64,000 nt of DNA, taken from assembly GCA_004376055.2 (NCBI GenBank), contig CP049016.1:868001-932000 (forward strand), written 5' to 3'. Source of the stretch: Nitrospirales bacterium LBB_01. GTDB lineage: Bacteria > Nitrospirota > Thermodesulfovibrionia > Thermodesulfovibrionales > Magnetobacteriaceae. The translations under genes and the position numbers were made by a program. The notes beneath the pieces are model-generated. The model was not told the DNA's origin, made no database searches, and saw only the letters and a list, made by a program, of their open reading frames with translations. This document shows, one piece after another, positions 24,512 through 38,912 of the stretch (within the stretch, counting starts at the first letter, position 1; every line of letters starts with the position of its first letter).

Positions 24512-24785
24512 CTTATACCGAGTTGCGCTCAAAGATATTAATAAAAACTGGATTCCTGCCTTCGCAGGAATGACAAAGAGAGTTGTAATACCGAGTTGCG
24601 TTCAAAGACATAAATAAAAAACTTGATTCCTGCCTACGCAGGAATGACAAATAAGGAAAAGGAATGACAAAGGAACGACTAAAGATTACGCCCCTTTGTC
24701 ATTCCCGCCTACGAGCGGGAATCCAGTCCTTTCTCATCACCATTATATTACCTTTTGGAAGCTAACGAAGTTAGGCGATTGGATG
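24512..24785. repeat. Composite repeat block: nested type A elements with two copies of the terminal sequence
   Basis: The gap 24458-24804 holds no gene. TATACCGAGTTGCGCTCAAA (24513-) and ATACCGAGTTGCGTTCAAAG (24591-) are two direct copies of the terminal repeat, each followed by a palindrome of the GGATTCCTGC type. The facing palindrome ATTCCCGCCTACGAGCGGGA ends near 24725, followed by a type C segment, GCTAACGAAGTTAGGCGAT. The arrangement looks like one element inserted into, or duplicated within, another, between two genes of one signalling cluster. Confidence 0.75.
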
Positions 24786-37746: not shown

Positions 37747-37977
37747 TTAAATTGCCTATGCAGTTAACGCCGTCAAATGTATTTCTGTCAGCAACTGATA
37801 GACTTAAAAGGACTGGATTCCCGCTCGTAGGCGGGAATGACAAAGAAGGGTCGCCATTCTGTTGTTTTCTTGTCATTCCTTTTCTATCATTCCTTTTTTC
37901 TTCTGTCATTCCTGCGAAGGCAGGAATCCAGTTTTTTCTTTGCGGAGCTAAGGGCATAAGCAAATAAATTAATAGAA
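37747..37977. repeat. Complete type A element with TTGCCTATGC-type terminal inverted repeats
   Basis: The left end reads TTGCCTATGCAGTTAACGCC. The right end, read inward on the minus strand, is TTGCTTATGCCCTTAGCTCC. Inside are facing palindromes GGATTCCCGCTCGTAGGCGG and ATTCCTGCGAAGGCAGGAAT. At about 230 bp with matching ends and no coding capacity, this is the clearest whole element in the window. No gene lies between 37682 and 38125. Confidence 0.8.
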
Positions 37978-38035: not shown

Positions 38036-38064
38036 TTGACTTTTTAAATAAATACGTATATGCT
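38036..38064 (+). promoter_or_regulatory. Probable promoter upstream of the tetranucleotide tract and receiver gene
   Basis: TTGACT (38036-38041) and TATGCT (38059-38064) are separated by 17 bp. A transcript from here would cross the inverted repeat and the tetranucleotide tract before reaching the receiver gene at 38460. Confidence 0.5.
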
Positions 38065-38260
38065 ATTTACATCAGGTACATTCCCTTGGAACGTAGGTTT
38101 CTATATTATTTTTTGATAGTTCGCTATGTGGGACAGGGCTGGAGGTAGCGGGATGGTTTTTGTCTTTTTTTTTAGCTGTAATTCTGTCGCACGCCAGATA
38201 ATCACAGGGGATAGGTACAGTATAGAAATACTGTTTGGTCCGTTGGAACAGCAGAGAGTA

Positions 38261-38292
38261 CAATTAAACAAGTATACATACTTGTTTAATTG
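38261..38292. repeat. Perfect 15-bp inverted repeat
   Basis: CAATTAAACAAGTAT and its exact reverse complement are separated by 2 bp (AC). The right arm ends where the tetranucleotide tract begins. It could be a protein-binding operator, or an RNA hairpin in the leader of the receiver gene. Confidence 0.9.
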
Positions 38293-38368
38293 TATGTATG
38301 TATGTATGTATGTATGTATGTATGTATGTATGTATGTATGTATGTATGTATGTATGTATGTATGTATG
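38291..38368. repeat. Tetranucleotide microsatellite, TGTA repeated about 19.5 times
   Basis: This is an uninterrupted run of the 4-bp unit over 78 bp. Perfect tracts of this length are rare in bacterial chromosomes outside phase-variable loci, because they change length by slipped-strand mispairing. It lies 91 bp before the receiver gene and beside the 15-bp inverted repeat. Confidence 0.97.
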
Positions 38369-38459
38369 GGGCGCAAAATTACCATTTCCTCACGAGAACT
38401 TCACAACCTCTGTATAAAAATACTGTTGACTGATATGCACAAGAAGTGGACTTGCAGCT

Positions 38460-38834
38460 ATGGAATCTGAAAACATACTTAAGAGATTAAGCATCTTATG
38501 CGTAGAGGATGAGAAGGCAGTAGAAGGTATTATTTATAGATACATGAAAAGGCGATTTGGGATAGTGTATATGGCATACAATGGTAAAGATGGTTTAGAA
38601 ATGTATTTACAACACAGGCCTGATATTGTAATAACTGATAATAAAATGCCAATTATGGATGGAATTACAATGTCAAATCTTATCTTAGAGATAAACAATA
38701 AACAACCGATTATTATAACAAAGTCTTTTATTGATGATGAGGATATTAGATGTAACACATATACAATTATTAAGAAACCTGTTGATATGATAAAATTGAT
38801 GGATGCACTTTATAATTATTTAAGATTGGTATAA
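38460..38834 (+). CDS. Single-domain response regulator with an AT-rich gene
   Basis: The product is a 124-residue receiver with LCVEDE (acidic pocket), the phosphoacceptor in DIVITDNKMPIMDG, Thr in PIIITKSF and Lys-Pro in TIIKKPVDM. It has no output domain. The gene is more AT-rich than its neighbours, which may indicate acquisition. The ATG at 38460 has no good ribosome binding site, so translation may depend on ribosomes arriving through the upstream frame that ends at 38470. No kinase is adjacent. Confidence 0.9.
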   Translation: MESENILKRLSILCVEDEKAVEGIIYRYMKRRFGIVYMAYNGKDGLEMYLQHRPDIVITDNKMPIMDGITMSNLILEINNKQPIIITKSFIDDEDIRCNTYTIIKKPVDMIKLMDALYNYLRLV

Positions 38835-38912
38835 TTGAGAGTATGGGAGGCAGTATCACGTGCAAAAATGTAGATGGTGGTGCTGAGTTCAGGATAAATC
38901 TTTGATAATTCA

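Follow-up and report, generated by a model that had tools for sequence, protein, structure and literature searches.

Repeat-driven phase variation is known mostly from the surface structures of host-adapted bacteria, where the tract sits in the gene or in its promoter. The contingency loci of Haemophilus influenzae, for instance, carry the tract within the switched gene, in its 5' part. These tetranucleotide loci (PMC2651432) resemble the locus described here in having long tracts that change a reading frame and in occurring several times per genome. Repeats also occur in leaders. As described in PMC4679880, uspA2 of Moraxella catarrhalis has an AGAT tract in its 5' untranslated region, likewise a tetranucleotide of variable copy number between promoter and start codon, with copy number affecting expression; the TAACTGA leader repeats of Beggiatoaceae (169 sets of heptamers, in 2–6 copies directly at start codons) share with our locus a position upstream of start codons, a proposed role in translation and an environmental setting, that of sulfur bacteria. 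Among response regulators, FlgR of Campylobacter jejuni is phase-variable by repeat slippage in coding-sequence tracts (PMC3930126), and the two-component regulators CmrRST of Clostridioides difficile are phase-variable through an invertible element (PMC6837544). A preliminary description of our locus had held that no phase-variable CheY-like regulator of this design is described; with FlgR and CmrRST known, that statement holds for the leader design only.

The locus lies in a 64,000-nucleotide stretch of DNA, the window, from a genome assembled as a single 3.27-Mb contig. The genome encodes MamK (NF040964, 469 bits) and therefore carries magnetosome genes; we infer a magnetotactic member of the Nitrospirota. 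The leader of a receiver gene in this window may be of contingency type, with a slipping TGTA tract in an upstream frame coupling translation of the receiver, and one of a genus-specific set, a reading to which we assign a probability of about 0.5. Its starting points are direct observations: the anatomy of the leader, the arithmetic of its frames, a family of similar leaders and tract lengths that differ between species.

Anatomy of the receiver leader

The gene (38460–38834, forward strand, as are the features at 38036–38905 below) encodes a CheY-like, receiver-only response regulator of 124 aa (Pfam Response_reg PF00072, E 1.9e-14); in alignment the acidic pair, the phospho-acceptor Asp, the Thr and the Lys are all there, without an output domain. 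It is flanked by PBP1A and EF-G genes, both on the opposite strand, and its start at 38460 has no clear ribosome site, as the preliminary description had said of this single-domain receiver. Ending 91 bp before the gene is a perfect (TGTA)19.5 tract (38291–38368), which TRF reports with a period of 4, 19.5 copies and 100% matches, in agreement with the 78 bp first described. A tandem-repeat survey of 844 kb of the genome (the window plus 39 spaced stretches) was complemented by degenerate-pattern scans, which genome-wide covered the TxTy class. In the 844 kb, the TGTA tract is the longest perfect short repeat, followed by a (TATC)11, and these two are the sole perfect tetranucleotide runs longer than 13 bp. 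A 16-mer of the tract recurs in the genome just as runs of 5 and 4 units; five TGTA units lie just after or before mamK, in the small space that separates it from its neighbour gene (L068 2379–2400). The tract is thus of the kind that marks simple-sequence-repeat contingency loci: long, pure, of short unit and exceptional in its genome.

A perfect inverted repeat (38259–38294; blastn and a match search of the window) precedes the tract, with arms TACAATTAAACAAGTA at 38259–38274 and its inverse at 38279–38294 around a TACA loop. Initially reported with 15-bp arms and as directly joined to the tract, it has 16-bp arms and does more than touch the tract, overlapping it by 4 bp, since the first tract unit also forms the end of the right arm. 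The arm has no other match in the window at up to three mismatches, blastn found no second copy of the inverted repeat in the genome, and it is absent from all related repeat-bearing leaders; judged by those leaders, this element special to one copy is not required. It repeats, in inverted orientation, the element that flanks the tract in this leader, GAGTACAATTAAACAAG (38256–38272), which motif comparison finds in two other repeat-bearing leaders (G003:C168 and G002:C10), and such an arrangement fits a template switch during replication. An invertible-element phase switch was rejected, the arms enclosing 4 bp only. In Rfam, every match to the leader fell below the gathering score and no known riboswitch or cis-regulatory RNA emerged; a lax threshold gave low-score matches alone, the top one being mir-297, driven by the TGTA repeat.

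Further upstream, a candidate sigma-70 promoter, TTGACT-17-TATGCT, lies at 38036–38064. It had been called likely, and it does match at 9/12 positions; because the region holds 6 such matches against a shuffled expectation of 6.1, it is not above chance by itself. In related leaders the corresponding position is taken by a CTTGAC promoter-like box (alignment A1). That tract length might act by altering promoter spacing, an alternative raised early on, is unlikely and was rejected from position, since this candidate lies about 230 bp upstream of the tract.

Between candidate promoter and gene, an ORF at 38126–38470, in a frame free of stops between 38120 and 38468, spans the tract and has an 11-bp overlap with the receiver gene from its ATG on. 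Here frame and overlap stand as first described, and the start is probably not at 38126. ATG 38153 is the better candidate, with a Shine-Dalgarno-like GGAGG (38141–38145) 7 nt upstream, and by ORF list and frame analysis yields a frame of 105 codons (38153–38470) that runs through hairpin and tract. With 19.5 units this frame reaches 38470, 8 nt into the receiver gene; with one unit more it ends at 38431 (−29 from the receiver ATG) and with two more at 38415 (−45). These computed ends (+8, −29, −45) bear out the claim that gain or loss of 4-bp units changes the frame that reaches the receiver, and a tract so placed is what a contingency locus has, provided that the upstream frame is translated.

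In sister species G002 and G003, the same two neighbours flank an intact PAS histidine kinase of 517 aa (L065 4418–5971, L066 6687–8240); by comparison with them, its last 24 codons and stop survive here at 38831–38905, fused to the region of the receiver stop codon. As read from this comparison, the receiver, its leader and dispersed repeats have replaced most of a histidine kinase that the two sister species kept. No receiver ortholog was found in three sister genomes at the sensitivity used (best match 46%); the nearest relatives, at 48–53%, are in other genera, and several adjoin a histidine-kinase-like gene. The wider genome collection returned just generic receivers from unrelated phyla, and distant blastn against the plasmid collection gave no match. 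Beside the EF-G gene of sister genome G001 are an AAA ATPase-like ORF and a 252-aa partner instead (L067 3106–4967), a two-gene set that looks, by eye, like a defence pair; the site seems variable. Dispersed REP-like repeats (CCTGCGAAGGCAGGAAT..., from sequence and TRF copies) lie at 37815–37945, within the stretch that differs from the sister genomes. Repeats of this kind (CTGGATTCCTGCC..GCAGGAATGACA) occur at several places in the window, 24515–24684 and 37815–37945, and repeat-bearing leaders here and in sister genomes contain insertions of similar ones.

Related leaders in the genome and genus

A TxTy-class pattern scan of the whole closed genome found four long tracts, that of the receiver leader and TATC tracts at 1639371, 1689424 and 2292028, and all four lie in leaders. 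A (TATC)11 tract stands 92 bp before a Cache-HisKA-HATPase-receiver-Hpt hybrid kinase gene; a 10.5-unit tract stands 115 bp before a chemotaxis receptor gene, itself followed by two ORFs that by eye resemble cheW and cheA; and a 9.75-unit tract stands 377 bp before a gene whose secreted product has a Peptidase_S74 chaperone domain. These three leaders have a module in common, comprising promoter, small frame, CAATTAAT, TATC tract and GCAAAA. Its order is a CTTGAC promoter-like box, a G-rich stretch, ATG TTT TAT/C, CAATTAATC, the tract, then GCAAAA or GGGCCGAAAA.

Model R1, built on the sequence that precedes the tract (matches counted at E <= 0.001), finds 5, 9, 9 and 3 copies in the four genomes of the genus and none in 15 others of the family. 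The number of units per module copy ranges from 2 to at least 39, and the genes that follow are mostly secreted or sensor genes. Some draft contigs break inside a tract, as in G002:C29, where a TATC tract of at least 39 units reaches the contig end before a 680-aa secreted protein (L197 3313–3469). A module start in G002 and in G003 reads in frame into a secreted protein (L237, L238), which suggests that it is a real, used start. Among secreted-protein genes with the module, most have a good ribosome site themselves and are out of phase in the assemblies, so the direction of the repeat effect may vary from gene to gene; the hybrid kinase and the receiver have poor sites and are in coupling phase in every genome examined.

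Whether the receiver leader belongs to this family is less immediate. R1, as a whole-module model, gives it 2 bits and does not recognise it over full length, and its repeat unit is TGTA, not TATC. Its pre-tract element matches that of a G003 leader (L230) at 17/18 positions, a score reached by 0/2000 shuffles. The post-tract bases, too, resemble the module set (mean P 0.001): motif comparison aligns GGGCGCAAAATTACC (38369–38383) with GGGCCGAAAATAACC and GCGCAAAAA of other leaders. A pattern, GAGTACAATTAA-N(0-2)-AAG, occurs three times in the four genomes (~14 Mb), each time beside such a tract, and the receiver leader has, in position, both a CAATTAA element before the tract and a GCGCAAAA-like element after it. 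We read it as a diverged member of the genus leader family.

Repeat number differs between species at orthologous hybrid-kinase and secreted-protein loci, the receiver locus having no ortholog. For the hybrid kinase, the tracts measure 44, 32 and 20 nt in this species, G002 and G003, and the distance from tract to ATG is 92 nt in all three. Tracts of these lengths differ in 12-nt steps, which by calculation keep the frame: the module frame always ends TAG-AAG-ATG, the other two ending at −34 and −80. As a pattern in sequence, these lengths support the idea of frame coupling.

Long tracts were also seen elsewhere in the family. In G013, of another genus, a (TGTA)9 tract (L144 2839–2874) lies 99 bp before a PAS histidine kinase, with GGAG directly before it, so that start codons lie inside the repeat. 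Long CT/AG dinucleotide tracts occur upstream of a CHASE histidine kinase in G011 (L206 2306–2343) and near other genes in G006 and G004 (L203 655–704, L204 2612–2657), all of other genera. WWSS repeats appeared in the pattern scan of G010 only.

Proposed frame coupling and competing explanations

A plausible sequence of events would begin with transcription from near 38070. Ribosomes would start at ATG 38153 and translate the small frame through the slippage-prone TGTA tract; at 19.5 units, and at every third unit, the frame would end 8 nt inside the receiver gene, where termination-reinitiation could let the receiver be made, reinitiation being needed because its own start has no good ribosome site. 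In the other two phases, ribosomes would terminate 29 or 45 nt before the receiver start, and less receiver would be made. Because leaders of this sort form a genus-specific set, phase variation would act separately on each of the sensor, chemotaxis, surface-protein and receiver genes, and a population could switch among their states. Slippage in such repeats probably acts on a set of genes across the genus, either as a switch or by tuning them.

Evidence for the frames themselves comes from the family. At the receiver locus alone, the open upstream frame is not notable by shuffling (P 0.42), nor is that of the hybrid-kinase leader; several secreted-protein leaders do stand out (P 0.05 to 0.001), and in the longer leaders one frame is open for most of the distance to the gene. 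Averaged over 13 loci, the open stretch of the post-tract sense frame covers 86% of the distance to the gene, versus 49% for antisense (P 0.002), a comparison in which the loci are partly orthologous, not all independent, and REP-like inserts may favour open frames. The proposal that the tract couples and uncouples receiver translation draws on the frame arithmetic, on the phase kept by hybrid-kinase orthologs and on these 13 loci. A functional leader peptide was rejected: substitutions in the upstream-frame peptides have no codon-position bias (5/7/7 and 6/8/8), so the peptide is not conserved and protein-level selection leaves no sign.

The statistics at the receiver locus, where the frame is not special, would suit a neutral origin, in which a short ATCTATC/TGTA seed is hypermutable and expands by slippage, perhaps helped by the hairpin, with the receiver expressed independently. 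Module copies with just 2–3 units exist, as such seeds would, and since the tracts share ancestry, finding them in leaders does not count as independent evidence. Against this, phase is kept in three hybrid-kinase orthologs (chance about 1/9), frames in long leaders are open far beyond chance, and the 844 kb surveyed hold hardly any other such tracts; on balance we consider neutrality rather unlikely. The same three orthologs bear on the possibility that the tract acts through RNA or DNA length, by graded change of leader folding, of access to the receiver start or of mRNA stability, as for the uspA2 AGAT tract, whose 5' untranslated position offers a precedent (PMC4679880). A graded effect does not predict lengths that, across three species, differ by whole multiples of 12 nt. 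The tract does lie in a long predicted leader, and the RNA is predicted to fold more stably than shuffled sequences (z −2.7, inflated by the self-pairing repeat), with tract and inverted repeat paired into hairpins; control by length is to us an unlikely account.

Of the elements in the leader, the inverted repeat could instead be the true control, as operator or attenuator, with the tract incidental. Perfect 16-bp arms around a 4-nt loop predict a stable hairpin, but this repeat is unique in the genome, missing from every related leader and derived from the flanking element of this leader by inverted duplication, as a template switch would make it; no U-run follows it and no terminator was found there. 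We regard such a role as very improbable. Frame coupling remains our favoured reading, and beyond it lies a broader, more tentative one, held at somewhat less than even odds: a duplicated leader cassette in a genus of magnetosome-gene-carrying bacteria may permit independent switching, by translational coupling, of hybrid kinase, chemotaxis receptor, receiver and surface-protein genes, forming a phase-variation network largely of input and response genes in a non-pathogen.

Comparison with known phase-variable systems

Searches of the literature provide the backdrop to this proposal. Among the matches listed for magnetotactic Nitrospirae, none mentions 'phase variation'; leader-frame phase variation was not found in the literature searched; and no description of a duplicated leader cassette with its tract in a separate upstream frame before sensory genes was found in searchable papers.

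The described systems differ from the leaders here in where the variable DNA lies and in how it acts. Unlike in H. influenzae, the tract belongs to an upstream frame distinct from the gene, and this frame ends at the gene start. FlgR has homopolymer tracts inside the regulator's coding sequence and no leader frame (PMC3930126), whereas the receiver has a leader tract; CmrRST relies on site-specific inversion of an upstream DNA element (PMC6837544) in place of a repeat tract. The uspA2 tract serves a surface protein and shows a graded optimum (18 copies), not frame phase, with no upstream frame mentioned in the passage of PMC4679880 on it, and the Beggiatoaceae repeats (PMC4679880) are without upstream frame or module homology. 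The repeats described here form a shared leader cassette before sensory and surface genes of an environmental lineage. Should the upstream-frame switch work, single cells of one population would differ in the environmental inputs they answer, and repeat lengths in environmental reads would give a direct count of those states without cultivation.
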